Below are positions 10,550 through 33,030 of a DNA stretch of 64,000 nt, piece by piece. The first letter of the stretch is position 1. Every line of letters begins with the position of its first letter. The notes beneath the pieces were generated by a model. That model saw only the letters and a program-made list of their open reading frames with translations, was not told where the DNA came from and did no database searches. Source of the DNA: Asparagopsis taxiformis (lineage: Eukaryota > Rhodophyta > Florideophyceae > Bonnemaisoniales > Bonnemaisoniaceae). The position numbers and the translations under genes are program-made. Location of the stretch: positions 38,211 to 102,210 of the forward strand of contig JALQPE010001685.1 of NCBI GenBank assembly GCA_030407315.1, given 5' to 3'.

Positions 10550-10580
10550 CTGTGTTTTCGGAAGTGGACGCGGACGTCCA
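10550..10580 (+). repeat. Left terminal inverted repeat, element B
   Basis: It begins CTGTGTTTTCGGAAGTGGAC and ends in the palindrome-containing GGACGTCC. It pairs with 33000-33030 over 31 bp with two mismatches. The preceding bases are ACGT (10546-10549). Confidence 0.88.
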
Positions 10581-10671
10581 GTCTCTCTAGTACGGGTCCT
10601 AGTCGGCCCCGAGATTTACTAGAACAAATGAACGTCCGCGTCCAAAAAAAAAATAAAATTTTTTGGATGCG

Positions 10672-11153
10672 GACGTCCACTTTCTCTAGTACATATGGCG
10701 GAATACTAGGGCCCGACATCCACTTTCTCTAGTACATATGGCGGAATACTAGGACCCGACATCCACTTTCTCTAGTACGTTTGGCGGAATACTAGGACCC
10801 GACATCCACTTTCTCTAGTACATATGGCGGAATACTAGGACCCGACATCCACTTTCTCTAGTACATATGGCGGAATACTAGGACCCGACATCCACTTTCT
10901 CTAGTACATATGGCGGAATACTAGGACCCGACATCCACTTTCTCTAGTACGTTTGGCGGAATACTAGGACCCGACATCCACTTTCTCTAGTACATATGGC
11001 GGAATACTAGGACCCGACATCCACTTTCTCTAGTACATATGGCGGAATACTAGGACCCGACATCCACTTTCTCTAGTACATATGGCGGAATACTAGGACC
11101 CGACATCCACTTTCTCTAGTACATATGGCGGAATACTAGGACCCGACATCCAG
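10672..11153 (+). repeat. 43-bp subterminal minisatellite, element B (11 units)
   Basis: Units start every 43 bp from 10672 to 11102, followed by a partial unit at 11145. Each contains GACATCCAC, TTCTCTAGTA and GGCGGAATACTAGGACCC. Two units (10758 and 10930) share the variant CGTTT in place of CATAT, suggesting block duplication. The first unit has GACGTCC as in the terminal repeats. Element C has only three units. Confidence 0.92.
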
Positions 11154-11275
11154 TATACAATATATCAGCGAAAACCGGGAGGGAAGAAATTACAGCGGAT
11201 GGTAAATTCAGGGCCCATATCGGACCGTATTTTATTCTCTCATTTAGGAAACTGCTCGTATACAATACGTCTCTC

Positions 11276-11432
11276 TAGAATAGGGAATACATATCTGGTC
11301 AGAATAGGAAATAAATACCCGGTTAGAATAGGAAATACGTATCCAGCCAGAATAGGAAATACGTATCCAGCCAGAATAGAAATACGTATCCAGCCAGAAT
11401 ACGAAATACGTATCCAGCCAGAATACAAAATA
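11276..11432 (+). repeat. 24-bp subterminal minisatellite, element B
   Basis: About six degenerate units of the type AATACGTATCCAGCCAGAAT occur in tandem. The same array lies inverted in element C at about 54690-54830. Repeated 'SGWIRIS' translations here are repeat artefacts. Confidence 0.85.
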
Positions 11433-11449
11433 CCTGTCAGCATATCGTC

Positions 11450-12842
11450 GATCACCCATCTCCCTCACTATCGCGTTCTCCCTACCATCCGAACGCCATG
11501 CACCACCATCCGCACATACTGCAAGAACCCTCACGACCTAGATTACAAAAAATACGCTCCTTCCCAATACCATCCCCGCTTTCCTCGACACCACCCCAGC
11601 CCATTAAATCATCAAGACATCAAACACGAACATGGTCAGCAAAATCTTACACCACTTGAAACCACTCTCACTTCTATCGTATGCCCCAAAATATACACAT
11701 ACCAGAAACACCTCACAGCTTCATTCCCCATCTTCCTACATCCCTTCTTCACTCTCCTTCAGTCCTGCCGTTCCTGCTTCACCACTCCTGCATCACATAC
11801 ACAACATCAGAATCAACCACAACAGTCAGACTCAAAAGCAACGCTTACCACGACAGATATCCTAGAAACTCCCTTACTTACCTCTCCGAGAGGATGACTG
11901 AATCATCCATCCTACACAAAATACAAACCATGATCCAAAAACCTTGCAATGAATAATCAAAGTCAGCAGTCCATATCTTCGCAAAACAAGTCTTGGTGCT
12001 CAGTAAAACTTACCTTCTGTCATCAACATTCCTGCATCATCTACACAACATCGGAATCAACCACAACAGTCAGACTCAAAACCAACCTTCCATCACAGCA
12101 TACTTTCAAAACTCGCACACTTACCTTCGCTCCACACAATACACACCATGACTCAATAGGCTTCCAATGAAAAATATCGCATCAACGGAAATAGTCAGAC
12201 TCAAAACCAACCTTCCCTCGCTGCTTACTTTCAAAACTCGCACACTTACTTTACCTGTTCCATCCTGCACACAATAAAAACCATAAATCACGTAATCGTG
12301 TAGCCAAGAAAAGTAGTCAGCATTCCGCATCTTCGCACAACCGGTCTGGGCGCCCAATGTGACTTACCTTCCGTCATCACTATTCCTCCATCACCTACGC
12401 AACATCGGATTCAATCGCAACAGTCAGATTGAAAACCAACGTTTCCCTCGCTACATACCCTGAGAACTCGCAAATGTACCTCTCATCCATCCTACACACA
12501 ATACAAACCATGATCCAAAAACCTTGCAATTAACAATAATCATAGTCAGCAGTCCATATCTTCGCAAAGCACATCTTGGCACTCAATGAAACTTACCTTC
12601 CGTCATCAACATTCCTGCATCATCTACACAACATCGGAATCAACCACAACAGTCAGACTCAAAATCAACCTTCCCTCACAGCATACTTTCAAAACTTCAC
12701 GTACCTCTCTTCCATCCTCCGCTCAATACACACCATCAGTCAACAGGCTTCCCATGAAAAATATCGCATCAACGGAAATAGTCAGACTCAAAACCCACGC
12801 TTCCCTCAACGCATACCCTCGAGGGTAGAGGATGGAACGAAG
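11450..12842 (-). repeat. Exon/intron-like repeat array, element B
   Basis: This is the minus-strand counterpart of 53420-54345 in element C. It alternates short blocks ending in AG with introns-like stretches that start GTAAGT and end TGTGTAG or GTGCAG. Repeated phrases are 'CAACCACAACAGTCAGACTC' and 'ACAGCATACTTTCAAAACTC' on the plus strand. Plus-strand ORFs in this region (Ser/Thr/His-rich) are shadows of the repeat. Confidence 0.6.
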
Positions 12843-12880
12843 GTACGTGCGCGAATCTTGATCAAGATTCGCGCACGTAC
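12843..12880. repeat. 38-bp perfect palindrome, element B
   Basis: The half-site GTACGTGCGCGAATCTTGA is followed immediately by its exact reverse complement. The centre is TGATCA. The identical 38 bp occurs at 53256-53293 in element C, between the small ORF and the exon-like array. Confidence 0.95.
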
Positions 12881-12903
12881 AAAGCAAAGTCGGTCAAAGA
12901 AGA

Positions 12904-13029
12904 TCAGTCGGTGATGAGGGCGGAGTGGAGCCTGCGGCGTCGACCGGACAGCTTTCTGCGTCCGCTTAAGTCTTGCTGTGCATACTCGAAATCATCGCCG
13001 GCAGTGAGATTGAGTATGGCCCAAGCCAT
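12904..13029 (-). CDS. Small basic conserved ORF (41 aa), element B
   Basis: The ATG at 13029 has a favourable context (ACCATGG). The product begins 'MAWAILNLTAGDDFEY' and ends with a basic stretch containing 'GRRKLSGRRRR'. It differs from the element C copy (53107-53232) by one residue near the C-terminus. A TATA-rich stretch lies 40-60 bp upstream on the minus strand. It points away from the transposase towards the exon-like array, so it may be the first coding exon of a spliced gene. I do not recognise it. It could also be non-coding sequence conserved only because the copies are young. Confidence 0.35.
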   Translation of the reverse strand: MAWAILNLTAGDDFEYAQQDLSGRRKLSGRRRRLHSALITD

Positions 13030-13476: not shown

Positions 13477-16400
13477 ATGGAATGCAAGTATGAAGGGTGC
13501 TTCTACTACTGCGTAGATGCTTATGCGCTCGCGCTGCATGAGCGAACGTGTCGCTACCGTTTCAACCCCTCTCCCCAACATTTCAACAACGCTCGTGTCC
13601 CTGCCGTCACCCATGAGCCTGCTCGAAACGGCGACCATGATTCCCCGCAACCCAGCTCCCCAGACCCAGAATCTGGTCGTGCTTCCTCCAGCGACTCACC
13701 CTGTGACGCTTCACTGCCACCAACCTCAACCCCCTCCCGCGCAGACCTCCTCGTGCAATCCCTCGCCGCCAGTCTCACAACCCTCGAGTACAAGGCCGGC
13801 GCTGGCCGCGTGAGCGAAGTCATCACCATCCTACAAGACCCCGCATTCTCCCTAGAAAAGTTCAACAGCGCCGTTCGCACCGTAGAAGAATGTCGCCACG
13901 TTACCGCTTCCATGGTCGAAACACATTTCCGCACCGAAGGTTACAAGAGCCACATCATTCCAGACAAAACTGGTAAGTACTCGGCACAGCTGTACCTCCG
14001 CGACCCAGTCGACATGCTCCGCAGGCAGTTAGCACTGGCTAACGACCAAAATACTCTCTTCCACCCCTCCCCACAGACCGCCCCAGACGGCACCGCAATA
14101 TTTTCTCATCCCCTACACACAGAATTCGCGAAAACGCTGCACCAGGTTACTAGACAGCGCGTGCAGCTCTCGGAAGATCCACAGGTCGTATGGGCAGAGG
14201 AAAATGATCCCACCGCTTCCTCCTTTGCCGGCCTCCTCCAAGTGTACTCCGACAAGAGCAGCACAAGCCTCAAGAGCTCCGCAATCGTCGCATACCCCAT
14301 ACACGTCACACTGCTCAACTTCTCCGCCCCCCTCCGTCGCCACTGCATCCGTACCGGCCTCACCATCGTCGGGTATCTTCCGTACATTGTTAACCCTTCG
14401 TCCAACGCCTTGTTCGGTGATGAAATGCCGACAACCTCTAGTTCTGCTAGTCGCGCTCGCAAAATTGATATTCTTCATAAAGCACTCGAAAAAGTGTTTT
14501 CGTCCCTATCCACCGCGTTCTCTTCCGGTTCCCCTGCACAGACTCCACTGCAACTGCCCGCCAATGCTTTCCCATCCTAGCCAATTATTGCTGCGACTTT
14601 CCAGAGGCCAAAGAGCTCTCATGCACTCGCAACAGCACTACCACCACACATCCCTGCCACCGCTGCTACATCCCCGCCACTCAACTTGAATCCAGCGCGC
14701 CACACCAGCCCCGCTCCCTCGATGATACACGCTCTGCACGCCAAGAGAGCGCTCAGGAGCATACAACTGCTCCGCTCGAAGCTCTCTCCCTCCTCGAACA
14801 ACACTCTGTCCTCGAATCGACCGCTCTTTTACCCACCAACAGTCCCCTAGACCCCTACAACATTTTCTCCTTCGAGCCTCTGCACAATCTCCACCTCGGC
14901 ATCTCAAAGCTCATCAAACAGTGCATTGTCCACCGCCTCAGCTCCCCAGACCTCACCACCACTGCCTCCCATTCCGGGACACCTCGCACCTTCAAGAAGG
15001 TGAAAAAATCCATCCTCGCCGGCTCAAACAGCATTCTGTCCGCTATCGAACGCGACTACTACATCACCGGTCTTCATGTCGACTTCTCCAAGGGTGAGAA
15101 GGGCACCAATTTGAACGGCCTCTTCACGGAGGACGGCATACGCGGCATGCTCGCAGCCAAAGACTATCACCATGTCGACATGGTGTTCCCTTTCATCGCA
15201 GCATTCATTGACACATGCTGTGACGAAGTAGATACAGCCCCCCTCACTTCCATCTGCACGCAATACTCTGACCTCGTCGCATGGGTCATGAAACGCGGTC
15301 GCATCAAGCACTGGACTGCCGCCGAACTAGAAAGCCTCCAGAACTCCATTTCCTATTTCAAACAATCAATGCTCTCCACCCTCGGCCCATTCCACACCAC
15401 AGGTCTCAAAACTTTCAAGTTCCATCTTCTAGACCATCTTCCCGGTGACTTGCAGAGATATGGCGCCCTGGAACACATTGATGCAGGCCCCTACGAACAC
15501 TCGCATCTTCTGTTCAAACAGAGTTATAGGAAAACCTCTCGAAGGCGCTCCACAGCCATGGAAGAGACTATTCGCCACATGGAATTCTCCTTGGCCACTC
15601 CAACTGGTCATACCCCATCGAACACATTGGGAAACGCACGCATGATATCGCCCACAGACGGTGCAGTACTCGTTCGCGACGGATTCACCGTTGCACTGCA
15701 CGACTTTGCCTCCCTGCTGCCCGATGCAACCCTCCTCGTTGCAGATATCGACGGACAGCCCGATCCTGCCACTCTTTTGCCGCTGCACAACTCCTCGTTC
15801 CCGTCTGGCACCATAACGCTATTCCAGCAACTCGGTGACACAGCTGCACAAGCGTTCCTCACCCTCGCTAGACTGCGCGCCACGGCAGAAGGCCCTCCAA
15901 TACATGACATGGACATTTCCGTCACCGTGGTAAAGTCCGCCTACGTCATGGGAGGGTACGTCCCAGATGCCGACGACTTTGACCCGCACAGTGGCATGCT
16001 TCGCCCCACAAACGTGTCGAGGCACAAGCAGCAGCGCGTCTTTGCAACTTCATCGTTCGGCCCCGCAAAGAGATCGCAGTACTCCTTTGTCGTCATCTCC
16101 GGAACTGCCGATGACTACAGAACCATATGGGTAGGGCGCGTCCTGGCACTGGTACGCCTGCAGTCTCCAAACCTGTTTCAACCTGTAGAACTCGCTTTCG
16201 TTCAGTATATGACCTGCTTTGCCCCAAAAACCGCTGTGGAAAAATCACTTGGGTGCATTTGTTTAAAGTGGTCCACATGGGACCCGGACAACGGATCCGT
16301 TGACAGCAATGACACTGCATCCCACAGTGCAGGTGGTCCTTGGTTTGACCTCATTCCTGCATCTACTATATCTGGCACCGTGCACATCGTACGAAGTAAC

Positions 16401-16514
16401 TTTCCAGTCAAGCCATTTACGAAACAAATGCACTGGTCGGACCACCGTTTCTATCTCAACCGCTTCTACACCAACACTGATTACCAATTCACAGATGATA
16501 ATGAAGAAGAATAA
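13477..16514 (+). pseudogene. Plavaka-like transposase, copy B (single-base deletion)
   Basis: The start is ATG at 13477. Residues 1-35 hold a C2H2-like finger ('CKYEGC', then 'HERTC'). Around residue 200 is 'LYLRDPVDMLRR', then a block with 'YSDKSS', 'AYPIHVTLLNFS' and 'GYLPYI', characteristic of Plavaka transposases. The frame breaks near 14530 where copy C has three G and this copy two, giving a stop at 14580. Beyond it the reading continues in the shifted frame to 16514 with 'HPCHRCYIP', 'FEPLHNLHLG', 'EDGIRGML' and 'YEHSHLLFKQSYRK', blocks of the RNase H-fold core and its surroundings. The total would be about 1012 residues without introns. The TAA stop lies within AATAAA. It should cut and join the terminal repeats, but this copy cannot make full-length protein. 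Confidence 0.85.
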
Positions 16515-16591
16515 ATCTAAATCGCAGCACTCTATTGATAATGTACTACATGATAAACCTTCTAGTCAACGTCACATTTACTGCACTAATT

Positions 16592-18876
16592 TCAACCATC
16601 CTCCATTACGCCAAAACCGTTATCAGCAGTGGCTGCATGGCGCCGCTCCATGCCCCCATACTGTGGGGCATTGATTTCGACATTCAGGTTTGCAGTCAGG
16701 TGTCCAGCATATGGGTCAACGACGAAAAGTTCTGCGCCAATTAGTCCTTGCGCAATCACACAATCCATTACAGCACCGAGGTTTGACGTAATATGCGATT
16801 GAATCCAATCCTCGGACACTAGAACAAGTGATGAGCAGCGGTTTACATCATCAACGACATGAACAATTCCAGACCCCTCTCCGCTTTGCCACACTTCAAC
16901 AGCCTCTCTCGTCACAGTACGGCTTGCAAACACATGCCGTGACTGTGCACTAGTCCGCTGTTCGCTCTCGACAACGTCCGTTTCTTCCCTTGCTTGCGAG
17001 CCTTGGAGACAAGACATGCAGTACACCACCATACCAACTAATTGCTGAAAAGCTACCCCCACATATTGACTGTACCGCCTTGTAAACTCCTTCTGCCGTG
17101 CACCTCCTTTCCCCTTCGGTTCATCCAAACACTCCACAGTAGTCACTAGCCAAGCATCCAGGCGCGCCAGCGTTAGTATGCTCGTCTCTATGTCCATTAC
17201 TTGTTCTGGTCGTATCGAATAACCCCTGAAGATGTCCAGCACATTCACAGCTACTCGGTTGTTAAACCATGCATCACCATTCACTTCCATTTCGAAGCTG
17301 TCAGGAACCAAGCCTTTGCTGTATCGCAGCTCTGAGAACGGTGCCGTTCGCCACCTCCCCATATCCAAATCACCGTTACTTTCCCGTTTCAAAAGCTTCT
17401 CAGACGCTTCGCGCTTTTGTTCCTCTCGCTCGTCCATCTCAGCTCGCGTCGTCAGCATCGTGCATCTAGACATTAATTTCGTGTACCCCAGCGAACCGAA
17501 CAATCTGTCCCTCGCATTACGCTTCCGTGCACTCATCACGTCGGACAGTTTCTGCGTCACCTTCACTTTCAATTCCTTGCTCCCCGCCACAGCCTCTTGA
17601 CAGCACACACGCTGCTCCTCATCGGAAAACACATCACACCACGGACTTTGACGCAGTACGTGTCGCACCAAGTCATTCAGCAGATCACTCTCGTCCCTGT
17701 ACGAAGGTGTATACCACTGCAGATTCTTGATGATATAGCCCGGAGGGGTAGCAATATATCCTACACCGTTTTCGCTCCAAAGTGCCCCTTCTACCGGCTC
17801 TACCTCGATGGTACGTCCAGTCCAACGTCTCTGCGTTTGTTCCGCTATAGGGTCCAGCTCCATAGTCTCGTTCTTGCACCACTTTGTCAGGTTTTCCTCA
17901 ACCGCCCTAAGAACTCCAAGGTATTTCACAGGAATGGCTTTCTGTATTTTCGACTTACCGCCACCGTGATCACTGATTCTACCTGTTCTCGCAATTGCAG
18001 TAAGGCTGGCATTTTCCGCCTGCAGAGTCTTCACCTTAGCCTCCAACGCAACAATCTCCGTGGTGAGCGCCTTGTTTGCTATGTCCTGGCTAAACACTTT
18101 TTTTTCCAGCTCCGCGATCTTCTTCTTCTGCGCATTGATGCGACTCGCCATTAAATCGATGGATTCCGGCGGATGCAACCTCTCTGCCCTCACCGTCCCC
18201 CCATCTCCCACGCTATCGGGAATATGATGTCCTCCATCGCCAATAGCCTGACGTCGCGGGGGCGTTACGCGCATATTTGGCACCAATGACACTCTGTTGT
18301 GACGAGGCCCGCACTCCGGCTGCTCTCTCCCCTCAGTACCACCTGACCGCCGATGATAGTTGGCATCCTGTGAACGTTGCTCAGAAACAACATCCCTTGC
18401 CGCTATCCTCGGGTCCCTGACTGCATTACCTGCTGGGGCTGATGTACTCGGCATAGTTGGCGCAGTGGGGGTCACAGCCTCCAGTGTCTCGGAACCCCCG
18501 GCTGGGACTCCGTCTGCAGCACCTCCGCATCTGCCAACCCGGGAGGAACTACCTTTGCCATAGCACTCTGCCGCAATTCCAACATGTTTTGAGCCACTAT
18601 CATGTCATCATCATGATGTTCACTGTCCCTGCGAGCACGCTTGCCTCGGTCAAGCCCCATCTCTCTCCGCGCCGTTCCTCCTTCCTCACTTTCTCGCTGC
18701 GGATCCCCAGTTCTGCGCCGGTCCGTCTTGCGACTACCGGACCGCGGTTCAATGCTGCCGGTAGGCCCAGACCGCTTCTTCGCACGGGATTGTCGGGCAC
18801 TCGATACAGCAGCTGCTGACCGGGTTTTCTGGAGGCCCGGAGGCTTTGGAGCTTTCTTCGCAATACGCGGCGGCAT
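16592..18876 (-). pseudogene. 761-aa coiled-coil protein gene, copy B (single-base deletion)
   Basis: This is the counterpart of the intact gene at 47253-49538. The ATG is at 18876. A one-base deletion near 18491 (CTCGGAAC against CTCGCGAAC in copy C) shifts the frame after about 128 codons. The remaining 627 codons are open and almost identical to copy C. The gene converges on the transposase with 77 bp between the stop codons. No known domain is evident beyond the coiled coil. The two genes have the layout of a transposase and an accessory protein. Confidence 0.8.
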
Positions 18877-19074
18877 AATGAAGCTTTCCCGGAAGCGATG
18901 GAACGATTGAGTTGCACGAGATACAAAAAAGATTGCTGTATAGTGTCGGTAACCACAACGGTCTGCGATGAACGTTCAGGTCAGGTCAAGTACCGGATAA
19001 TACGCCAACAGCCCAGATTGTATACGGTAGGCAGTCATCAACAGTATTTAATGAGGTACAATTACAGCTGTCGA

Positions 19075-19700
19075 GCTAGGCCGCGAGCACCCCTATGTCC
19101 GGAAGACGTCCTGATTTGAATTAAAATTTGGGCTATTCTCAAAAACATGCACATGTGAACATGTTTTTGAGATGGGGGTGTGCCGTACGGCACAATCGAC
19201 CGCCCAAATCGATGTTTTTTGCAATATTTTTTTGTGCCCGAAATTTTAGAATTTCTGGGCTGGCCAGCAATGCAATCGAGCTGGACATCCACCGGACGTC
19301 CATTTCAGGTTGGTCGTGAGAGAGCGGGGCGGGACCATGATGGAACAAGGACCAAGACCTGTCCCTGGCGTATTGAGCCTGAAATTGACCCTTCGTCAGA
19401 CGCCATTTAGCCTTACAGTTGGTGCTTACAGAAGCCAGTGATGACCCCGCTCGGGGCGGCGGTCGGTTCCTGGGGCCGTTGTGGCCAAATTAGACACCCT
19501 GATTTGAATTAAAATTTGGGCTATTCTCAAAAACATGCACATGTGAACATGTTTTTGAAATGGGGGTGTGCCGTACGGCACAATCGGCCGCCCAAATCAA
19601 GGTTTTTTACAATATTTTTGCTGCCCGAAATTCTACAATTTCTGGGCTGGCCAGTAATGCATTAGCTATGTGCTCTAAACCGATTCTAACAAGCAGAAAG
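19075..19700 (-). repeat. Hairpin repeats in reverse orientation, element B (2 units)
   Basis: The hairpins are at 19138-19171 and 19526-19559, each with the GTGCCGTACGGCAC palindrome nearby. The order of blocks is reversed relative to the clusters at 24690 and 30365. This makes a long inverted repeat flanking the methyltransferase gene. Confidence 0.9.
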
Positions 19701-20754: not shown

Positions 20755-20965
20755 ATCCTGCTTTGAATTAAAATTTGGGCTATTCTCAAAAACATGCACA
20801 TGTGAACATGTTTTTGAGATGGGGGTGTGCCGTACGGCACAATCGACCGCCGAAATCGATGTTTTTTGCAATATTTTTTCTGCCCGAAATTGTAGAATTT
20901 CTGGGCTGGCCAGCAATGCATCTGAGTCGGACATCCCCACGTCCAGTGGCCGTCCGGATGTCGCT
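20755..20965 (-). repeat. Hairpin repeat in reverse orientation, element B (1 unit)
   Basis: The hairpin at 20785-20818 and its adjacent palindrome end shortly before the 5' region of the methyltransferase-SET gene. Confidence 0.88.
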
Positions 20966-21271: not shown

Positions 21272-24200
21272 ATGACGAATAAGCGCAGGCGCAACAGCAA
21301 TCCGATCGTTGACGACGCAACCGTGCCAATTCTGCGCGAACCCGCTAGCCCTTGGGAGGATTCTAGTGACATGGGTACACGTCGAAACGTAGGTCGCGCC
21401 GCCCGCGAAACTACTCTCGCTGGCAAAGACTTCCTCCGCCTCTTGCTGGATTTATTCGCCCACTCAAGTTTCGCAGACTTGACGGACAAGCCGGGAGGTT
21501 TCACATACGCGGACCTTGGCGCTTGGGTTGCGCAGGGCACGGAAGAACAATTTGTGGCGCTGCAAGGTCGACTCAGCATGTCCTTCAGCGGTCGTTCGAA
21601 GAATGCTGGAGTCGAGGCGGATGTTGCCGAAATCGTCATGGCAGAGATGAACGTTGAGCGAGCCAAGCAGATTGTTCGTCTGGCATTACCCATTGCCGAG
21701 TTTTCAAGACAGGATGAGCGTATCGGGCAATGGGTTGAGCACTGCATCCTTTCTGGGATCGTGCCGCAGACCTTCCTTATTGGATGTAACATGCTTCCTT
21801 CGCCACTACAGGCGCCGCAGCGCGGGGAACCAAGCGCCTTCGTTCTTGCTCCACCGGAAACGTTCGAGGTATTGATGTATTTCCAAGCGTTGTCTATCAT
21901 CCGAAATCACAACAAGAACCTGCCGCGTCGCCGAATAGGAGATGCGGCCGAAGAGGGGAACGAAGCCGCACGCGTCCCAGCCCATCGGAAAAGCACTAAT
22001 CGAGCTTGTTACGTGGTTCAAGTTTTATACCATGCTTGGACCGATGTGGCCTACGCCGCAAAGTTTTCCAGCTTCGAAGAGTTGATGGCGCCGTACATCA
22101 TTTTCGACAGCAGTGAGCATTGGTTTGACGTGCTCGATGAAGGTCTATTCGCACCGATGGAGCAGAAGCTAGATCTCTACCACAACAAAGCTCCCCTATC
22201 TCATCCTGATGGATATGGTGGAAAAGTAGAGACAAGAACCAGTGCGCAGCACAGTGCATTTAGGGACCTTGTGAGGAAGTTCTTCGACCGGTTGCAGTTT
22301 CTTATCGTCAACCCGGACCTGTACACCTGGCCGGAGTCCGACCGCTGGGGGGCACTGGAAATATACTTCTCAAGCGGAAATCCGGACAAGCTGCCAGCGT
22401 ATTTTGACACCCTCGACGAAGACGTTATGGCTGTCCTCCGCCCGGCACCACAAGCCGCGGACGCAGAAAAGGTCCCCAAGCCGGTTGATGACACTCCCAC
22501 TCGTCGCAACACAGGAGGGAGAGGTTTGGTTCCGTCGACAAGACACACAACCAGGCTTCAACTTGGACCTGGGAGGACCAGTCTTACTGCCCAAGGGCCG
22601 TCTCCCCCGTCACCGTCACCCCATGCGACAGAAGAGCAGGAAAGTGAAGGGCAGGCTCTCGCAAAGGACTTTCTTTCGAAAATGAGTCAGTATTGCCGGG
22701 TGTACGACGTCCCTTTCGAAGATTTGGTCAGTGCCGACGAGAGCCGAGAACACGTGCCCATCACGGGCAACGTTCAGCTCATTCTGACTGATCCGCCCTA
22801 CAATGTTCGTCGTAAGAGGAACGATTCCAACTCTTCGTACGACAGGCTAACTGCAGAAGATATGCAGGCTAGCATCGAAGTGTTTGACGAGCTGTTGCGC
22901 CCCGGTGGCCACGGCATCGTGTTCTGCTCGGTTTTGCAGTTCTACGAATGGTTCCATTACTTGGAAACGTACAAAGGACCGCAGTCAGAAGGCCCAACCG
23001 ATACTGCTGCCAGTGATGACGGGTCGGATGAAGAAGAGGTTACGTCCATGAATTCGGACTCCGAAGCATCGCAGCACAGTGGCGAAGAAAGTGCGGATGA
23101 GGAGGAGGACGAGGAGGAGGAGGACGTCGTTCGGAATTCAGTTTTCTTCGTTGACGAGGTACCTCTGTTGTTTGTCCGACTACCTGGGCACCTCTATCAA
23201 ATGCCGGGGCGGAAGAGGTACCAACGCATGAACATGGCAGAGGTCGCTATCCACTTCTGGAAGCGAGGTGTTCCGTTCAAGACCGGAAGCGAGATGGTGG
23301 CCTATAGGAACCACGGATACATGGACGGCACGTACCCGGCGTGGTGCAACGTCACCATCAATATGCCCGCCATCGATTCGAATGAGATGGTGTGGCGAAC
23401 AAGGAGCACAACCGGTGCTACGGTCAGAGTTCGTGCAGAGCAGAAGAGCGTCGCTCTCATGATGGAGTTGATCAGCCAGCATTCACAGCCTGGTGATATT
23501 GTTGTCGATCCATTCTCTGGCACTTTCGCAACGGGAAAAGCAGCTATGAGCTTGCCTGAGCACCGTGTTTTCGTCGGCAGTGACATGGACAAATTGTGTG
23601 TGGTACGATCGCTTCCAAAGCTGTGTGCAGTCATGTCACGTGTAATTCTTTCAAACAACACTGACATGAGGGTCACGACAGAAGCGAAACAGAGTGCTGA
23701 GAAGTTCTTGGCGTCCCCCTCTGTCACGATGCGTACGCAGAGGGAACGCAGGATCATCGAACCCCCACCTGGCCTTCCCCTGTACCAGAGGTTCCCGAAA
23801 TATATTCGGCAGTACCTCTGGCAGCTGTGCCCAGAGTCGATTGCGTCGCGCGAGCACATGGAGAAACCGGTACATTATTGGCCACCTTCCCTGCGCCGCT
23901 GGTTGCAAACTGAAAACCCTCGCGTGATGCGGGCACACGATTGTGTTGCGAAAAAATTGAGCGTTCGACCATCGCTGATTAAGCATCCAAATGCAGGAAG
24001 AGGGCTCTTCGCTGAACAGACATTTAATGTTGGTGACGAAGTATGTGCATACTACGGAACTGTTGTGTACTCTGATATGAGCAAGGAGTCGATGAGGTTC
24101 GCGTACGGAGAGGGTCACATGGCGATAACGAAGGAAACATTCTTGATGTATGCTATCAAGCTGTATGCAACAGCGGAGGACGACGAAAACATCGAGCATC

Positions 24201-24469
24201 CAATTTGGATTGTTCCGGCTCCGTTCTGTTCGGCGCAGTTCATCAACGACCCGCGGTATTTGCGAGGTGAGGACACTCCGGCGGAAGACACCAGGCGGAT
24301 GGCCAACGTCGAGTTTGTCGAGAACTACAGCAGCGGTTCGACGGGGAAGAAGCTCAAGGCGAAGGACCTAGAAAATCCGAAGATCATTGTAGTACGTGCA
24401 ATCCGCGATATCCGTCCGGGGCAGGAGCTCTACGTTCATTATGGGACAGCGTTTAGAGCATGGAATTAG
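21272..24469 (+). CDS. DNA amino-methyltransferase-SET domain fusion (1065 aa), intact
   Basis: ATG 21272 is the first ATG in the frame; the reading frame extends upstream without one. Residues 1-440 are not recognised. At about residue 507 is 'LTDPPYNVRR', the catalytic motif IV of DNA adenine-N6/cytosine-N4 methyltransferases. An acidic run follows at about 578-621. At about 746 is 'VVDPFSGTFATGKAA', the SAM-binding motif I. Motif IV before motif I is the order of beta-class enzymes such as CcrM. Residues 895-1060 form a SET domain: 'NAGRGLFAEQTF', 'YYGTVV', 'QFINDPRY' at the usual NHxC position and 'GQELYVHYG'. The protein therefore combines a predicted DNA methylase with a predicted protein-lysine methylase. 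AATAAA lies 32 bp after the stop. There are no introns or frame breaks. DPPY favours N6-adenine, but specificity is not provable here. Confidence 0.88.
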   Translation: MTNKRRRNSNPIVDDATVPILREPASPWEDSSDMGTRRNVGRAARETTLAGKDFLRLLLDLFAHSSFADLTDKPGGFTYADLGAWVAQGTEEQFVALQGRLSMSFSGRSKNAGVEADVAEIVMAEMNVERAKQIVRLALPIAEFSRQDERIGQWVEHCILSGIVPQTFLIGCNMLPSPLQAPQRGEPSAFVLAPPETFEVLMYFQALSIIRNHNKNLPRRRIGDAAEEGNEAARVPAHRKSTNRACYVVQVLYHAWTDVAYAAKFSSFEELMAPYIIFDSSEHWFDVLDEGLFAPMEQKLDLYHNKAPLSHPDGYGGKVETRTSAQHSAFRDLVRKFFDRLQFLIVNPDLYTWPESDRWGALEIYFSSGNPDKLPAYFDTLDEDVMAVLRPAPQAADAEKVPKPVDDTPTRRNTGGRGLVPSTRHTTRLQLGPGRTSLTAQGPSPPSPSPHATEEQESEGQALAKDFLSKMSQYCRVYDVPFEDLVSADESREHVPITGNVQLILTDPPYNVRRKRNDSNSSYDRLTAEDMQASIEVFDELLRPGGHGIVFCSVLQFYEWFHYLETYKGPQSEGPTDTAASDDGSDEEEVTSMNSDSEASQHSGEESADEEEDEEEEDVVRNSVFFVDEVPLLFVRLPGHLYQMPGRKRYQRMNMAEVAIHFWKRGVPFKTGSEMVAYRNHGYMDGTYPAWCNVTINMPAIDSNEMVWRTRSTTGATVRVRAEQKSVALMMELISQHSQPGDIVVDPFSGTFATGKAAMSLPEHRVFVGSDMDKLCVVRSLPKLCAVMSRVILSNNTDMRVTTEAKQSAEKFLASPSVTMRTQRERRIIEPPPGLPLYQRFPKYIRQYLWQLCPESIASREHMEKPVHYWPPSLRRWLQTENPRVMRAHDCVAKKLSVRPSLIKHPNAGRGLFAEQTFNVGDEVCAYYGTVVYSDMSKESMRFAYGEGHMAITKETFLMYAIKLYATAEDDENIEHPIWIVPAPFCSAQFINDPRYLRGEDTPAEDTRRMANVEFVENYSSGSTGKKLKAKDLENPKIIVVRAIRDIRPGQELYVHYGTAFRAWN

Positions 24470-24689: not shown

Positions 24690-25800
24690 GACCAAGTTGA
24701 AATGGACGCCCGGTGGATGTCCAGCTCAGTTGCATTGCTGTCCAGCCCAGAAATTCTACAATTCAGGGCAGAAAAAATATTGCAAAAAACATCGATTTCA
24801 GCGGGTCGATTGTGCCGTACGGCACACCCCCATCTCAAAAACATGTTCACATGTGCATGTTTTTGAGAATAGCCCAAATTTTAATTCAAATCAGGGTGTC
24901 TAATTTGGCCACAACGGCCCCAGGAACCGACCGCCGCCCCGAGTGGGGTTGTCACTGGCTTCTGTAAGCACTAACTGTAAGGCTAAATGGCGTCTGACAA
25001 AGGGTCAATTTCAGGCTCAATACGCCAGGGACAGGTCTTGGTCCTTGTTCCATCATGGTCCCACCCCACTCTCTCACGACCAACCTGAAATGCACGTCCG
25101 GTGGATGTCCAGCTCGATTGCACTGCTGGCCAGCCCGGAAATTCTAAAATTTCGGGCACAAAAAAATTGTAAAAAATCAACGATTTCAGCGGGTCGTTTG
25201 TGCCGTACGGCACACCCCCATTTCAAAAACATGTTCACATGTGCATGTTTTTGAGAATAGCCCAAATTTTAATTCAAATCAGGGTGTCTAATTTGGCCAC
25301 AACGGCCCCAGGAACCGGCCGCCGCCCCGAGCGGGGTCATCACTGGCTTCTGTAAGCACTAACTGTGAGGCTAAATGGCGCCGGAAGATGGGTCGATTGC
25401 AGGCTTCAAGCCTAACTTATGCTAGGGAGAAATCTTCTTCCGTGTTTCATCATGGTCCCGCCTTACTCCCTCAACAGAAACACTACTCACCCATCACGTT
25501 ACTCATATTCCGTGCACTTTATATTAGTAGTGAACCCGCCTGCTTAGTTGCTGCAATGCGTGGATGTAGGCAGCACACGACCAACCTGAAATGGACGTCC
25601 GGTGGATGTCCATCTCAGATGCACTGCTGGCCAGCCCAGAAATTCTAAAATTTCGGGCACAAAAAATCTTGCAAAAATCAACGATTTGGGCGGGTCGATT
25701 GTGCCGTACGGCACACCCCCATCTCAAAAACATGTTCACATGTGCATGTTTTTGAGAATAGCCCAAATTTTAACTCAAATCAGGGTGTTCCCCGGATAAA
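24690..25800 (+). repeat. Hairpin-repeat cluster between methyltransferase-SET and dioxygenase genes (3 units)
   Basis: The hairpins are at 24834-24867, 25222-25255 and 25723-25756, each preceded by GTGCCGTACGGCAC. The first unit has the variants ATTCAGGGCAG and TTTCAGCGGGTCG, which also occur in element C at 46880-46935. Confidence 0.9.
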
Positions 25801-26132: not shown

Positions 26133-29100
26133 ATGGCGGATACGCATTTCAGCAGTTTGTTTTCAACGGTTTGCGGCGATCAAGTGAGCGCGTCAGCGGA
26201 GTCGCGCGGACTCAAGCGCGGCGTCGATGTCGACTTGTTTGCGGACGTGGACGGTGCGGCTGTGCATATTGGGACGGCTTCGGTGAGCACTGCTGGTGGC
26301 GATGTTGGCCTTCCGCGCACGCTGCACAACCACAAGCTGCCGGAAACCGACGAGGCCGACTATATCGTCGTGCGCAACATTGCGACTAAGGACAAGTTCA
26401 AGGACCTCCCGTTCCCGTACATGTTTGATGGCGCCGAGGGACCGCCGGAGACGATGGGTGGAGCATACGCCGCGGCGTTTTACCCTTGGGATACTCGGAT
26501 GATGCGCCCCGCTGCGGAGGATGGCTCTAGCGACATTCGTACCCCTGCTGCAGCGTCAAACTTCAACGCAGCGACGAACCAGGCCAGCTCGGGACGGATG
26601 CCCAGTACCGGTCCAGCAGGCGAAATCACTGGTTCGGGGGGTACGAAGCATCCAGCACGCTCCGTCCCGGTTTCGGGAGGCACGAAGCGCCCTGCTCGCT
26701 CTGCCAGAGCCTCCAGTGGAGGCACGAAGCACCCTGCTCGCTCCAACGTCACCGAAGCTACTACGCAGGACGTAACCGAGGTGGACGACGAACCGGAGGT
26801 GGCGGAAAGCATTCGTGAGCAGCAGGGGACGCAAATTATGGTGCCCAAGTTTGTGACGTCGGATTACGTCGGAGAAGGAGCGACTGTGTTGGTGAGGCAG
26901 CTAGTGGAACCGGCCGTGACCCTTCGCGATGTCAAAGAAGACCACGTGGAGGACCTGCGCAACAATATGTTGGCGGTGGGGTATGTGAGCTCTTCGCGTA
27001 TCACTGTGACGGTGCTGAGGTCGCAGAACACGCATTTGTCCGCCGACACGCGTCTGTTCCAGAATGGCAAATTCCATGCCAATGCGAACGTGACCGTGAT
27101 CGACGGACTGCATCGTCTCAATGCTATGCATAGCATTGCGGATGACTTCACGCGCCTCACCCGTATGCACAGAACCAAGCTGCCACAGGAGGCAAACCGC
27201 TTGCGCTGGGTTACTCAGCCTCTGGATGTGTACTACCTTCGCCGCAAGGACGACAGTGATCTCCAGCCTCATGAGATCATCCACAAGAGTGCAGAGTCGA
27301 ACCATACGACTGGGACGCAACTGACGGAGCGCTCCCTGGTTCGAATCTTGTCGTCCATCCAGCAGTTCATCCGTACGATTGCTGTTGCAAATAACGTGGA
27401 AAACGCTGGCGACTTGCGTGAGTCTGATGTCATCCGAACATTGTTCGAGGCGCAGTTCATGGGGATGATGAATTCAACGAACACGGCCCGGCGGTGGACG
27501 CGTTTGGCTATAGCAACGCTGAAGCATCCTGTTCTCGACGAAGTGTTGCGTGAGCTGAACAATTCCGAGCGCCGCAACGAGATTGGGATAACGCACCTGG
27601 ACCACAAGATAGTGCGCGAGTTGCTGGAAGAAAACTTTGTCTTCGTCTTGCGTGGTCTTTCGGAGTACTTGAACCCTGCTCATGGTGGACGTCCGGATGG
27701 ACGCTTTGACGTGAACGACTTCTATACATACGTCCGTCGCGTGACTGCAATAGCAAATTCTCTGTACGCTGCGTATGGGCGCCCAAAGAGTATTATGCGC
27801 AAGTCATTTCTGAGCACAGAGATGGCAATTGGGTCGGTTAAGCAGCCGAAGGAGTTGCAATGGCATCTCACCAATGCCATTGCAATGTATAGAGGGGACG
27901 ACCGGAGCAGTGAGGTTCGAATGCGACGGAGAACCACGCGTTTACAGGATTTGGAAACGAACTTGAAAGAGTTTTTCAATCCGACATTGAAGAAGAAGAC
28001 TAAGGCTCGACGCAAACGCCGCCCTTCTGCTGCCAATGTGAGACTCACTCACAAGAAGCAGCGGAATGTCGAACATGAGCCTGCTTCGCATGGCATCCGC
28101 CGCCGTTCACAGCGACTTCGCTCGACGGGGAGCACACGCCTCGAGGAAGAAGAGCCGGTTGTGGTACAACAATCCGCCGGGGAAGAAGAGCAGGCCGTTG
28201 TTGATAAACCCACCGATCAACAACAAGCCACTGCTTCCGGTGATGAGGTTGACGAAGACTCCGCCCGTTCCCCCGATTCTGCCGTTGAGATTGTCCCCCA
28301 AGATAACCAACGTGCTGGTGCGACTCCCTCCAACCAAGAATCTGTCCATACCGCTTCGGACGAGGAAGACAAACAGGGTGCAGACGTGGGCCAAGTCGAA
28401 AGCAAGGGGGTCCGCGAAGTGACAATTACATTCACTGTTCCGGAAGGAGTGGAAGTCGATGAAGACGGTTACATCGTTCGTGACTCTCCTTCTGAACACG
28501 ACCTCCTGTTCGACGACCGTATGCCATCTCTTCCTGACGATTTCGAAGTCAAAGACCGAGCTGAAGGGCATCATCTGGCGCAGCGTCCCGCGGACGTCAT
28601 CGCATCGGTGAGGGTTGGCTGTCTGCCCCCGATTGAGCTCAGGTTGTTATTGGAGAGTGTGGAAATCGATGAGGAGGGCAGAGAGGTGAGGTATTTGAAG
28701 CAAGTGGCGATGGACCCTGTGTTTGAGGGGCTGCATATTCCGGAACAACATCGGGCTCGTCATCTTGTTTTCGAGATCGACACCATCTATCCGATGTTTT
28801 TCGCAGCGTGGAAGATGGCTGCCAAGGCGATGTGTGAGCCTACATCGACGTTTCTACCCTCGAGGCTGGACTTCGCCCAGGTTGCGCGAATGTCTACAAG
28901 CTGGAAGGATTCGTATGAGGCCGGCACTGGTATGGCGTACTTCCACAATTGCCGAACGGAAATCAACGAGCGAGGGTATACGGTGATGCACAATTTCGCG
29001 GATGTAAGCTACCTCGATGCGTCGGACAAGTTCCCATTTGACTTGGGTCTCATGGAAGAAATTCCTAACCAGGAATTGTTTCGGTACTTTTTGGGAACGT

Positions 29101-30089
29101 GGGAGGGGGAGGAGGTGCACAAGGACCCTGGGAACCGGCAGCTGTGGAGTCCCATTGTCAATACTGGGGACGATGAAACAGATGAGAAGAACCGGAATGA
29201 GGGGAGGGCTCGCTTCACGTCTACGCGCCACTGCCTGGTTGACTATGCCGAGAACGATGAGACGCATATCGACCGGTTCAAGTTTGTGACGCGGCGAGCC
29301 CTGCTGGATGTGTGGTTGGGAATCCTTGTCCGGCTGATAGGGCTGGAGGAGTGCGGTTTACCGGGAGAAAAACTTGTCATGCCGGCATCTGGGGGACGGT
29401 TTTTGATAACGGGAAAGGGGTGTCCTCGGCAGGTCCCACACAATGATTTCCCTGTTCCTCCTCGCGACCGCAAAGATCAACTTCCGGGTTACTTTGTTAT
29501 TGCCAACGGAGATGACCCATTCCCTATCTGGGTGTGTCCAGGGTCCCACAAGTACGTCTTTTCCAAAGCGCTGGAATTAGATATGTACGCCAAGACGATG
29601 AAGCTGAAGAAGGTAATCGTTCCGCCACGTTCAGTCTTCATCGGTCACGGCCATGTACAACATGCCGGGGCAGGGCATGTCGACAGAGTTGTGTCACACA
29701 CGACAACGAGGTATCACACGTATTTCAGGAATGCGTCGTATCCGATTCCCGACAATGTTTCGTTTGGTTTCATCAGGCGGTTGGGATTCGAAGAAGAAGT
29801 AATCGCCAATGCTCCGCGCCGGTCTGCCAGGCAAAGTCAACCGGCACCTGTCAATGTTCGCCACAAGACAGTTGTTCCCATCCCGGTCAAGAAAGATCGT
29901 AGGCCGAAGACAGGGCAACTCGGAATCATGCGGATGAAGACGACAGAAGCTCCCAAGAAGAGAACCCTCACACCGGGTCAAAAATTCATCTTGAGCTATT
30001 CAACTCCACAGTTGCCGATAACGCCTATTCTGCCGGGAGATCCTGAATATAGTGAGGACGAAGAGGAAGAAGAATTTTCCGACGGCTAG
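26133..30089 (+). CDS. ParB-like/2-oxoglutarate-Fe(II) dioxygenase fusion (1318 aa), intact
   Basis: ATG 26133 has a strong context (CAACCATGG) and is the first ATG of the frame. Residues 170-210 carry three copies of GGTK(H/R)PARS. Residues 235-420 look like a ParB/Srx fold: 'VEPAVTLRDVKEDHVEDL' and 'VIDGLHRLNAM', the G-x-H-R-x-x-A box. A helical middle part is followed by a basic, NLS-like stretch near 625-680 and an acidic low-complexity linker. Residues 1000-1220 resemble PhyH-type oxygenases: H-x-D at 1103/1105 ('PHNDF'), 'CPGSHKYVF', the distal His near 1177 and an Arg near 1193. Such enzymes hydroxylate substrates using iron and 2-oxoglutarate. Next to a DNA methyltransferase, a nucleic-acid or chromatin substrate is plausible but unproven. 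The end is very acidic. There are no introns. Confidence 0.85.
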   Translation: MADTHFSSLFSTVCGDQVSASAESRGLKRGVDVDLFADVDGAAVHIGTASVSTAGGDVGLPRTLHNHKLPETDEADYIVVRNIATKDKFKDLPFPYMFDGAEGPPETMGGAYAAAFYPWDTRMMRPAAEDGSSDIRTPAAASNFNAATNQASSGRMPSTGPAGEITGSGGTKHPARSVPVSGGTKRPARSARASSGGTKHPARSNVTEATTQDVTEVDDEPEVAESIREQQGTQIMVPKFVTSDYVGEGATVLVRQLVEPAVTLRDVKEDHVEDLRNNMLAVGYVSSSRITVTVLRSQNTHLSADTRLFQNGKFHANANVTVIDGLHRLNAMHSIADDFTRLTRMHRTKLPQEANRLRWVTQPLDVYYLRRKDDSDLQPHEIIHKSAESNHTTGTQLTERSLVRILSSIQQFIRTIAVANNVENAGDLRESDVIRTLFEAQFMGMMNSTNTARRWTRLAIATLKHPVLDEVLRELNNSERRNEIGITHLDHKIVRELLEENFVFVLRGLSEYLNPAHGGRPDGRFDVNDFYTYVRRVTAIANSLYAAYGRPKSIMRKSFLSTEMAIGSVKQPKELQWHLTNAIAMYRGDDRSSEVRMRRRTTRLQDLETNLKEFFNPTLKKKTKARRKRRPSAANVRLTHKKQRNVEHEPASHGIRRRSQRLRSTGSTRLEEEEPVVVQQSAGEEEQAVVDKPTDQQQATASGDEVDEDSARSPDSAVEIVPQDNQRAGATPSNQESVHTASDEEDKQGADVGQVESKGVREVTITFTVPEGVEVDEDGYIVRDSPSEHDLLFDDRMPSLPDDFEVKDRAEGHHLAQRPADVIASVRVGCLPPIELRLLLESVEIDEEGREVRYLKQVAMDPVFEGLHIPEQHRARHLVFEIDTIYPMFFAAWKMAAKAMCEPTSTFLPSRLDFAQVARMSTSWKDSYEAGTGMAYFHNCRTEINERGYTVMHNFADVSYLDASDKFPFDLGLMEEIPNQELFRYFLGTWEGEEVHKDPGNRQLWSPIVNTGDDETDEKNRNEGRARFTSTRHCLVDYAENDETHIDRFKFVTRRALLDVWLGILVRLIGLEECGLPGEKLVMPASGGRFLITGKGCPRQVPHNDFPVPPRDRKDQLPGYFVIANGDDPFPIWVCPGSHKYVFSKALELDMYAKTMKLKKVIVPPRSVFIGHGHVQHAGAGHVDRVVSHTTTRYHTYFRNASYPIPDNVSFGFIRRLGFEEEVIANAPRRSARQSQPAPVNVRHKTVVPIPVKKDRRPKTGQLGIMRMKTTEAPKKRTLTPGQKFILSYSTPQLPITPILPGDPEYSEDEEEEEFSDG

Positions 30090-30364
30090 ATAGCTTAACA
30101 ACTACTACTTTGGTAAACAATTATCGAGAATATAATCATCTCCTTTATCACTTCCAATCTATGAACCTAGTATAATGTACTTCCGTTCCATGCTTTCAAA
30201 CTAGATTGTCCATTCCCTCGTGGGTTGGAGCATGATTTCCAGGACGATTCCCTCACATCTCTAGACTCGATGGTCTATGGTAGAAATAGCAGAACAATTG
30301 GGTTTGTACGTGCTTCATCGCCTACTTGCTTCCGGTAATGGGTGGACGTGCACGATACACGATC

Positions 30365-31420
30365 AACCTGAAATGGACGTCCGGTGGATGTCCAGGTCAG
30401 ATGCATTGCTGGCCAGCCCAGAAACTCTACAATTCAGGGCAGAAAAAAATATTGCAAAAAACATCGATTTGGGCGGTCGATTGTGCCGTACGGCACACCC
30501 CCATCTCAAAAACATGTTCACATGTGCATGTTTTTGAGAATAGCCCAAATTTTAATTCAAATCAGGGTGTCTAATTTGGCCACAACGGCCCCAGGAACCG
30601 GCCGCCGCCCCGAGCGGGGCCATCACTGGCTTCTGTAAGCACTAACTGTAAGCCAAAATCGCGTCTTACGAAGGTTCGATTCCAGGCTTGAAGCCTAAGT
30701 TATGCTTGGGTGACATCTTTTTCCCTGTTTCATCATGGTCCCGCCTTACTCCCTCAACACAAACACTACTCACCTATCACGTTACTCATATTCCGTGTAC
30801 TTTGTATTAGTAGTGAACCCGCTGGCTTAGTTTCTGCAATGCGTGGATGTAGGCAGCACACGACCAACCTGAAATGGACGTCCGGTGGATGTCCAGCTCA
30901 GATGCACTGCTGGCCAGCCCAGAAATTCTAAAATTTCGGGCACAAAAAATCTTGCAAAAATCAACGATTTGGGCGGTCGATTGTGCCGTACGGCACACCC
31001 CCATCTCAAAAACATGTTCACATGTGCATGTTTTTGAGAATAGCCCAAATTTTAATTCAAATCAGGGTGTCTAATTTGGCCACAACGGCCCCAGGAACCG
31101 ACCGCCGGCCCCGATCGGGGCTATCACTGGCGTCTGTAAGCACCAACTGTAAGCCGGAGCCGGCTGCCGCCCCGATCGGGGCTATCACTGGCTTCTATTA
31201 GCACCAACTGTAAGCCAAAATCGCGTCTCACGAAGGGTCGATTTCAGGCTCAACACGTCAGGGAAAGGTCTTGGTCCTTGTTTCATCATGGTCCCGCCCC
31301 ACCCTCTCGCGACCAACCTGAAATGGACGTCCGGTGGATGTCCAGCTCGATTGCATTGCTGGCCAGCCCAGAAATTCTAAAATTTCCGAAAAATCAATTT
31401 TGTGGCCCAGCATCTCCTGT
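30365..31420 (+). repeat. Hairpin-repeat cluster downstream of the dioxygenase gene, element B (2 units plus partial)
   Basis: The hairpins are at 30505-30538 and 31005-31038, 500 bp apart. A third partial unit lacks the hairpin. A local duplication of the CCGCCCCGATCGGGGC block occurs near 31100-31200. Confidence 0.9.
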
Positions 31421-32999
31421 GCCGAAAATTCCCGCGCTCACTTGTGATATACGTCTAGACGTGTTTCCCACTTGTACGCATCAGGGAAGGCGTCACGGAA
31501 GGTTGACACTACGCTACTTGTGTACCGCGTCGTCTGAAATAGCGAGTAGTGTTTGTTGTATAGTTGTGGAGTATGCGTCTAGTGGTTTGTAAAGCTTGCA
31601 GAACGGGATAGGGATGTGGGTGGCCCTATTTTATGAATACATGAGTACCAATATTCAGGGTTGACAAAGCGGAAAGGCATAGGCTCATACATGTTTGAGA
31701 TTGCATAGTAGAGAAAATATTTTCATCGAAATTTACATGGAGCTGATGGAGGTTTTATGGATGAGGTATGAGAGGAAGAAAATTCTTCTGTGGTATGAGG
31801 ATGTGTTCTGTGGGGGGATGGAATCTTGGGATGGTACAGGGGGAGGTGGAAATGTACGGAGTGCGGGTTTAGAATGGATTGTGATTCGGAGAGGAGTGCC
31901 GACAAGCATATTATGGGGATTGGGGAGACGCTGCGGGGTGTTGGGGTAGTGAGGGCGGAGGAGGTGTTTAGGTGGGACCGTAGGAGGGTGCGGTTGAAGG
32001 CGCCGAGAGGAGGGGTTTTTAGGAAAGTGAGGAGAAAGAAGGGGAGGGGGTGGCGTCTGTTCTGGCTGTGGTGAGTGGGGATGTGATGGAGAAGAAGGGG
32101 GTTATTGTATTTGGGGAGGGAGGGGAGTGGGAGGAAGGGTGCGAAGTGGGGGGTTGATATGTGTTTCAGAGCGGGGAGGTTTCTGGGGATACGGCGGGGG
32201 AGCCACCCCGCAGTGCGGGAGCGTGGGCCGGTGGTGGTGGTGTATACGGTATCGAAGATGCGGATGGCGTGGGGGCATGGAGCAGCTGAGGGAGGGAGGG
32301 GTGGAGCAGGTCGGGTACGGGATGGGGAGTGAGAGGTTTTGGAAGAGTAAGCTGCAGGGGAAGTTTGTGTAGAGGGCGAAGGAGAGGGGTTGAGGGTAGA
32401 GGAGAGAGGGTACTGAAGAACAATACGTTTCAAAGGTGATGGGGGAGAGCATGGTCGAGGAGATAGGGGGTGTTTTGCCCTATTCTGAGGTAGTATGAGG
32501 ACTGGTTATACGAAATCTGTACGGTAGAGCAGAAAAGTAGGTATGGAATGGAGGTGTGCACCGTGGAAGCGGGGATAGGTATCTGAAAATGCGTGCTAGA
32601 GTGGTATTGGGGGTGTTTGAGGTACAGTACGGGGGAGGTGAGCACCAACAGGAAGGGGGTGTGAGCGAGAGGATGAAAAAATTAAAGACGAAATTGGAGT
32701 CGACCGACAAGGAAAAATAGAGTGGTCGCCGTGATGGATGCGGACATCCATGTCGAGCACGGCGGCAGAAATTTCTGGGGTCGAAATTTTTGAATTTCTG
32801 AACCGGCGCCCGTCCTAGGTGGACATAGACATGGCGGAAGTCCATCCCGAGGGGGACATCCGTGGTACTAGAAACAATGAATGTCGCCCTAGTAATACTA
32901 GACGTACTAGACCGCATGGACGTCCGGTTCTAGGCGGACATCCAAAAATACTGGAGAACATGGACGTCCGCCTAGTAATACTAGGTGTACTAGAGGTTG
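31421..32999 (+). other. Right arm of element B (G-rich, then subterminal motifs)
   Basis: It is nearly identical to 4441-6053. The plus strand is extremely G-rich from about 31800 to 32420 and has many potential G-quadruplex runs. From 32730 on, GGACGTCC/GGACATCC and CTAGTA motifs are repeated, resembling the subterminal transposase-binding repeats of CACTA-like elements. The minus-strand Pro/Ser-rich frame at 31723-32433 is a composition artefact. Confidence 0.6.
31826..32074 (+). CDS. Possible zinc-finger-like exon in the right arm
   Basis: The frame encodes 'WKCTECGFRMDCDSERSADK' followed by His and a basic tail. Element A (4890-5131) has the same reading with conservative changes (M to L, D to E). 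It has Cys-x2-Cys and a His at C2H2 distance but no clear fourth ligand. There is no ATG upstream of the Cys pair in frame, so if real it is an exon rather than a complete gene. It may be chance in G-rich DNA. Confidence 0.2.
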   Translation: MGWYRGRWKCTECGFRMDCDSERSADKHIMGIGETLRGVGVVRAEEVFRWDRRRVRLKAPRGGVFRKVRRKKGRGWRLFWLW

Positions 33000-33030
33000 T
33001 GGACGTCCGCGTCCATTTCCGAGAACACAG
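33000..33030 (-). repeat. Right terminal inverted repeat, element B
   Basis: It is the reverse complement of the left repeat with two mismatches over 31 bp. Bases ACG follow, and the next base is the first base of the gypsy 2 LTR at 33034. Confidence 0.88.

Follow-up and report, generated by a model that had tools for sequence, protein, structure and literature searches.

The stretch of 64,000 nucleotides analysed here (the window, corresponding to C1565:38,211-102,210 in the searched assembly of 141.49 Mb and 3,156 contigs) contains a large DNA transposon, termed copy B in the following, whose family is one of Plavaka-lineage (CACTA-like) cut-and-paste DNA transposons residing in a genome that is probably red-algal. 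Next to a transposase and a coiled-coil-like protein, the element encodes a DNA methyltransferase-SET fusion and a protein joining a ParB-like half to a putative oxygenase half, and the family was found to comprise roughly 900 copies in the genome. What was observed comprises the ends, an almost constant set of genes, the high copy number and the assigned domains, with the oxygenase half being the more weakly documented part. An initial annotation, made from the letters of the window, had proposed a large CACTA/Plavaka-like element with these two fusions, and this proposal was confirmed by ends, gene linkage and domains. Re-measuring gave copy B a length of 22,487 bp (10,547-33,033), and its features are as follows.

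10547..10580, plus strand: left terminal inverted repeat, 34 bp, 2 mismatches against the right one
10587..11152, no strand: left subterminal region, 43-bp tandem array rich in TACTAG, with 24 of the 33 TACTAG/CTAGTA sites of copy B
13477..16514, plus strand: Plavaka-family transposase in two overlapping frames (13405-14580 and 14481-16514), Pfam PF18759 in both halves
16592..18454, minus strand: coiled-coil-like protein of 620 amino acids, marker 48-mer at 992 places
19137..19172, minus strand: 36-bp palindrome (this and the following seven by sequence comparison)
19525..19560, minus strand: 36-bp palindrome, 1 mismatch
20784..20819, minus strand: 36-bp palindrome
21272..24469, plus strand: DNA methyltransferase-SET fusion of 1065 amino acids, Pfam PF01555 and PF00856, fold matches
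22772..23593, plus strand: N6/N4 amino-methyltransferase domain in beta-class order, the DPPY motif preceding motif I
23996..24445, plus strand: SET domain by Pfam and fold match, NDPRY instead of the usual NHxC
24833..24868, plus strand: 36-bp palindrome
25221..25256, plus strand: 36-bp palindrome, 1 mismatch
25722..25757, plus strand: 36-bp palindrome
26133..30089, plus strand: ParB-oxygenase fusion of 1318 amino acids, marker 48-mer at 884 places
26841..27764, plus strand: ParB/Srx-fold half by fold, including a stretch aligned to the helical DNA-binding parts of ParB
28788..29777, plus strand: putative Fe(II)/2-oxoglutarate oxygenase half, HxD...H...R, invariant motifs and weak fold match
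30504..30539, plus strand: 36-bp palindrome
31004..31039, plus strand: 36-bp palindrome
32866..32993, no strand: right subterminal region, with 7 of the 33 TACTAG/CTAGTA sites
33000..33033, minus strand: right terminal inverted repeat, 34 bp, 2 mismatches against the left one

The inverted repeats bounding copy B, given as 31 bp in the initial annotation, are present and slightly longer than assumed, and the end pairs of the family read CGTCTG..CAGACG. Exact matches to the terminal repeat number 2,404 genome-wide (1,204 forward and 1,200 reverse) versus none for a control with the reversed pattern, hence the family ends are more than a chance occurrence. All 30 left ends that were fetched, being the best 30 of 40 matches listed, begin at the identical base and lie in 28 different flanks, and a 2-bp target duplication was identified in six of ten left/right end pairs (AA, TG, AT, TT, GA and TA), with about 0.6 pairs having identical 2-bp flanks being expected by chance. 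Two element ends were also found back to back, about 380 bp apart (L034 1579-2028). Subterminal repeats are the layout of CACTA elements, and in copy B 31 of the 33 TACTAG/CTAGTA sites locate to the terminal 606 and 168 bp.

Copy number and gene linkage were assessed with one marker 48-mer per gene, searched with 2 mismatches allowed and with all four controls yielding 0. The transposase marker was found at 954 places, that of the coiled-coil protein at 992, that of the methyltransferase at 964 and that of the ParB-oxygenase at 884, and these near-equal counts indicate that the four genes travel together. If most of these places represent full elements, the family would take up some 20 Mb, or one seventh of the assembly; the estimate may be inflated by haplotype duplicates, as 2 of the 28 left-end sites occur on two contigs. 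A published red-alga assembly is given as containing 33.48% DNA transposons (PMC12115072). Among the 80 exact-match methyltransferase places up to contig C306, a transposase or ParB-oxygenase match lies within 15 kb in 62 and none was found in 18, whereby these neighbour counts, like those for the segment orientation below, are based on exact matches among the matches listed, so that misses are expected. The genes reside inside the terminal repeats, at numbers near one to one, and for the family they do not occur mainly outside. The methyltransferase gene as a separate mobile unit was considered and dropped, as all 30 fetched copies (30 of 40 listed) have the flanks of the element. All 30 methyltransferase genes that were fetched are identical to that of copy B across 3,198 nucleotides, yet these 30 head a ranking that selects for identity and do not describe all 964 places.

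In copy B the transposase frame is broken, with the frame change lying between about 14529 and 14580, and the two overlapping open reading frames match the Pfam Plavaka family with E-values of 3e-9 and 5e-9 (36.2 and 37.0 bits, cut-off 26.3). The two pieces have identities of 94.5% and 98.5% with an unbroken homologue of 1013 amino acids (P0032). In P0032 numbering, C394xxC397 and H651xxxH655 reside between D374 and E698 and are invariant in 21 aligned sequences (21 of 23 hits, P0053 and P0054 being left out), D374 and E698 being the predicted catalytic residues. The Pfam score, the C(2)C and H(3-4)H motifs lying between the second D and the last E, and the 2-bp duplication (2 or 3 bp in Plavaka elements) are all as in Plavaka transposons. 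The termini of copy B match neither those of PlavakaA (TGT..ACA) nor those of PlavakaB (CATCA..TGATG), as given in the excerpt of PMC12730594, and no sub-lineage membership is claimed. The neighbouring coiled-coil protein may be regarded as a candidate second transposition protein; for P0004, Pfam returned only matches below the family cut-offs, mostly to coiled-coil regions.

The methyltransferase-SET fusion is encoded by a single open reading frame, in which Pfam identified N6_N4_Mtase (E 4e-15) and SET (E 1e-6; 29.5 bits versus a cut-off of 22.4), next to an N-terminal helical domain. Protein searches returned 19 relatives, one of them 99% and the remainder 27-37% identical. PF01555 was found in 19 of 19 members of an alignment comprising the window protein and P0008-P0025, SET was scored in 13 of these 19 at E 0.01, and in the window protein DPPY precedes DPFSGT, which is the beta-class order. 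DPPY/F rather than SPPY is possessed by 18 of 20 proteins (P0011 and P0013 being without), and judged by this motif the DNA mark would most likely be N6-methyladenine. A scan of IMG/VR revealed 28 loci matching only within query residues 719-830, the motif-I side, as general amino-methyltransferases do, and a further IMG/VR scan revealed no loci. Within the genome, PF01555 yielded 2,605 candidates; 150 of these were scored, all of them matching, and several score and length classes were seen. One other class, located at C44:69500-71514 (L111 and L112, 672 and 1,343 bases), is about 29% identical to the protein of copy B in the methyltransferase domain and is followed by SET-like sequence. PF00145, the C5 methyltransferase family, gave no match in the genome, where introns could hide it.

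For the ParB half of the second fusion, Foldseek E-values were above 0.001 and yet the top five hits all possess the ParB/Srx fold, with block values of the predicted local distance difference test (pLDDT) of 51-84; the modelled ParB/Srx fold together with a helical DNA-binding part would be those of a ParB CTPase clamp. Such clamps load on a palindromic site in a nucleotide-dependent manner and spread from it, and palindromes are present in the element. In the other half the HxD...H...R motif is conserved in seven of seven members, and the match to the double-stranded beta-helix fold of Fe(II)/2-oxoglutarate oxygenases is weak. The initial annotation had mentioned TET/JBP oxygenases as associated with KDZ elements; for this half a TET/JBP identity was dropped, as none of the seven members showed a Pfam match to TET/JBP at E-values up to 1; a PDB sequence search with the ParB-oxygenase profile likewise gave nothing credible. 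Given that neither a C5 methyltransferase nor a TET/JBP match was found, the oxygenase, if active, is predicted more likely to act on amino-methyl or other marks. Six relatives of the ParB-oxygenase were found, one of which (P0026) derives from a contig reported with the same length, 15,726 bases, as that of the methyltransferase relative P0017, which makes it probable that these two genes adjoin each other there as well.

The eight copies of the nested 36-bp palindrome in copy B are all intergenic, and inverted arms of at least 13 bp number 13, versus a mean of 0.02 in 50 block shuffles. Over 18 copies (12 from the window and six from a gene-less relative) the palindrome is 99.1% identical, with identity amounting to 95.9% in the adjoining 24 nucleotides on the 5' side, 82% in the next 60 columns and 57% in the 60 columns on the 3' side (gaps counted). 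The gene-less relative measures 11.07 kb (C12:264,414-275,483; L081 1-10000 and L082 1-1101) and shares the ends of the family, with an AA duplication. By blastn it matches none of the four gene regions of copy B, and about 3.4 kb of its interior are without a match in the window. As it has nonetheless kept six exact palindromes, these may act in cis for the element. A 112-bp tandem repeat of 2.5 copies (20176-20460) was also seen upstream of the methyltransferase gene.

The methyltransferase segment occurs in two orientations. Inverted repeats surround the methyltransferase in copy B (19109-25283). With strict spacing and with the coiled-coil and ParB-oxygenase lists added, 61 of 73 places up to contig C284 were assigned without conflict, 18 being oriented as in copy B and 43 inverted, and 12 stayed unassigned. 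Inverted copies with a listed transposase mostly display a spacing of about 5,720 bp (5.65-5.75 kb), which is the register of copy C, described below, and the outcome expected if the inverted repeat copies at 19,109-19,318 and 24,687-24,895 recombine, as in copy C. This would be consistent with one old inversion, or a few, after which both forms were amplified, rather than with a switch; ongoing flip-flop of the segment was dropped as an explanation, since most flipped copies with a listed transposase have one spacing.

Two further copies locate to the window.

1..6087, plus strand: copy A, truncated at the start of the window so that just its right part is present; sequence match to copy B
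44718..55210, minus strand: copy C, transposase side, methyltransferase segment in opposite orientation; sequence match to copy B

Three copies with common termini and modules had been described initially; all three are real, but A and C are only partial. Copy A is 94.9-99.5% identical to positions 27,366-33,033 of copy B. Copy C matches the inverted positions 10,546-19,318 and part of the methyltransferase gene in opposite orientation; no match to the ParB-oxygenase gene was found in it and it has no right end, an LTR (long terminal repeat) retrotransposon being located there. This Ty3/Gypsy-type element (33033-44718) encodes integrase, reverse transcriptase and a chromodomain, and is young, given that its two 568-bp LTRs are identical. 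It interrupts copy C and abuts the right end of copy B with flanks that do not match, and the junction of B, LTR element and C may be rearranged or misassembled. A second Gypsy-type polyprotein occupies 55029-58982, with the outer end of copy C (55210) at its start, and a gag-like open reading frame (7549-8979, minus strand; Retrotrans_gag, E 2e-6) resides between copies A and B.

With regard to the host, phycobilisome genes were found in 13 matches, on contig C469 and two others, showing it to be an alga with phycobilisomes, either a red alga or another, and not a fungus. A fungal origin was dropped on this ground, and the fungal setting from which the initial annotation drew its comparisons did not hold. 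An endogenous virus was dropped as well, as no capsid or polymerase family appeared among the five open reading frames of copy B that were scanned.

Transposons with epigenetic cargo are already known, among which this gene set appears to be new. As in the initial annotation, no described transposon with this set was found, the search covering the open-access literature, with subscription papers and Repbase reports lying outside it. Among the closest counterparts are Plavaka DNA transposons (CMCT clade), including TET+ Plavaka elements of Agaricales, which, as excerpted, share transposase family, catalytic motifs, 2-bp duplication and chromatin-modifying cargo, whereas here the host is an alga and the cargo consists of methyltransferase-SET and ParB-oxygenase rather than TET/JBP (PMC12730594). 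The Plavaka giant repeats of Amoebidium are likewise large, intron-poor gene clusters with a Plavaka transposase, but tyrosine recombinases are described for them and the excerpt mentions neither a methyltransferase-SET nor a ParB protein (PMC11244446). Mobile elements encoding a DNA methyltransferase comprise the DNMT-bearing elements of dinoflagellates and charophytes and DIRS elements with a Dam-like enzyme; these differ in being retrotransposons with C5 or Dam-type enzymes, for which no SET fusion is mentioned in the excerpt (PMC5890265). HarbingerS and MuDR elements are DNA transposons encoding a SET protein, but in the excerpt citing them no fusion with a DNA methyltransferase is mentioned (PMC12730594). 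Finally, N4CMT of bdelloid rotifers is, as excerpted, host-encoded and possesses an SPPY motif and a chromodomain, whereas here the enzyme is transposon-encoded and combines DPPY and SET in one protein (PMC8885841).

The likeliest reading, which we hold to be somewhat probable, is that of epigenetic self-licensing, meaning that the element would keep its own chromatin permissive by means of its encoded writers and eraser. Transposase and coiled-coil protein would act at the terminal repeats and the subterminal ones, the methyltransferase-SET protein would write an amino-methyl DNA mark and a linked lysine-methyl mark on DNA and nucleosomes of the element, and the ParB-oxygenase would load on the conserved internal palindromes and oxidatively remove methyl or other marks. 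The resulting permissive chromatin would allow the element to be expressed and to transpose, and gene-less relatives with the same cis sites would be mobilised in trans. Several points weigh against this. NHxC is the catalytic motif of SET domains, and 16 of 20 proteins have ND for NH (NDPRY or similar), with the motif not found in the other four, so that activity on histones may have been altered or lost. For the oxygenase, the match by fold is weak and the model itself is of poor quality, with a mean pLDDT of 51. Four of the ten end pairs are without a duplication, as is copy B itself (flanks CA / TA), hence rearrangement, nesting or misassembly affects some of the pairs. The 23 transposase homologues share no contig size with the methyltransferase homologues, so that linkage to Plavaka is seen only within this genome. 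The nonsynonymous/synonymous proportions between copy B and copy C or A (0.31 for the methyltransferase, 0.36 for the transposase, 0.66 for the coiled-coil protein and 0.53 for the ParB-oxygenase) are based on just 11-25 differences each.

Methylation of subterminal repeats gates transposase binding in En/Spm and Ac and couples excision to replication. By analogy, the methyltransferase-SET protein and the oxygenase might regulate transposition in this way, with no general anti-silencing role. The terminal, CACTA-like position of 31 of 33 TACTAG sites, the adenines of which could be methylated by an N6-methyladenine enzyme, would fit; still we consider this unlikely, as the nearly invariant palindromes are internal and not at the ends, and as a SET domain would not be needed. 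Slightly less probable again is self-restraint, in which the element would silence itself and its relatives by DNA and histone methylation, thereby limiting host damage, with the oxygenase serving as reset. A precedent is the amino-methyltransferase of bdelloid rotifers, of the same fold class, which according to the excerpt marks transposons and for which a SET partner in silencing was proposed (PMC8885841); however, many near-identical copies, among them the 30 identical fetched methyltransferase genes chosen by an identity-selecting ranking, point to recent growth of the family. That the cargo genes are passengers spreading with the transposon and serving no purpose for it appears improbable: the gene-less element with the same ends has a target duplication and so has evidently transposed, but the four genes occur in near-equal counts, the substitution ratios lie at 0.31-0.66, and the same fusion recurs in homologues of 27-37% identity and in a further class of methyltransferases within the genome. 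An assembly artefact or contamination, to which the odd junction of B, LTR element and C and the 2 of 28 left-end sites on two contigs might point, is highly improbable and for the family contradicted by ends, gene order and spacing that are alike on many contigs and by elements embedded among Gypsy retrotransposons; thus the family stands, and the suspicion applies to the B-C junction.

A bolder and rather doubtful reading would be a self-contained system of spreading write-and-erase, in which a ParB clamp slides from the palindromes and carries a DNA (or histone) oxygenase over kilobases, and in which one methyltransferase-SET enzyme writes both adenine and histone marks. To our knowledge, delivery of an eraser by a ParB-type clamp would be without precedent. 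Were it true, the family would have used a write-and-erase system to come to occupy about one seventh of an algal genome for which the search detected no C5 cytosine methyltransferase. Transposons with one chromatin enzyme are known; the present element, of which there are roughly 900 copies, combines a ParB-fold, oxygenase-like protein with a fusion of two predicted writers, one for DNA and one of histone type. Such an element would be evidence that parasites of the genome are able to carry along a full marking system of their own. As the genome is without a detectable C5 methyltransferase and possesses very many amino-methyltransferase genes, it offers a direct test of amino-methylated DNA as a working epigenetic mark in red algae.

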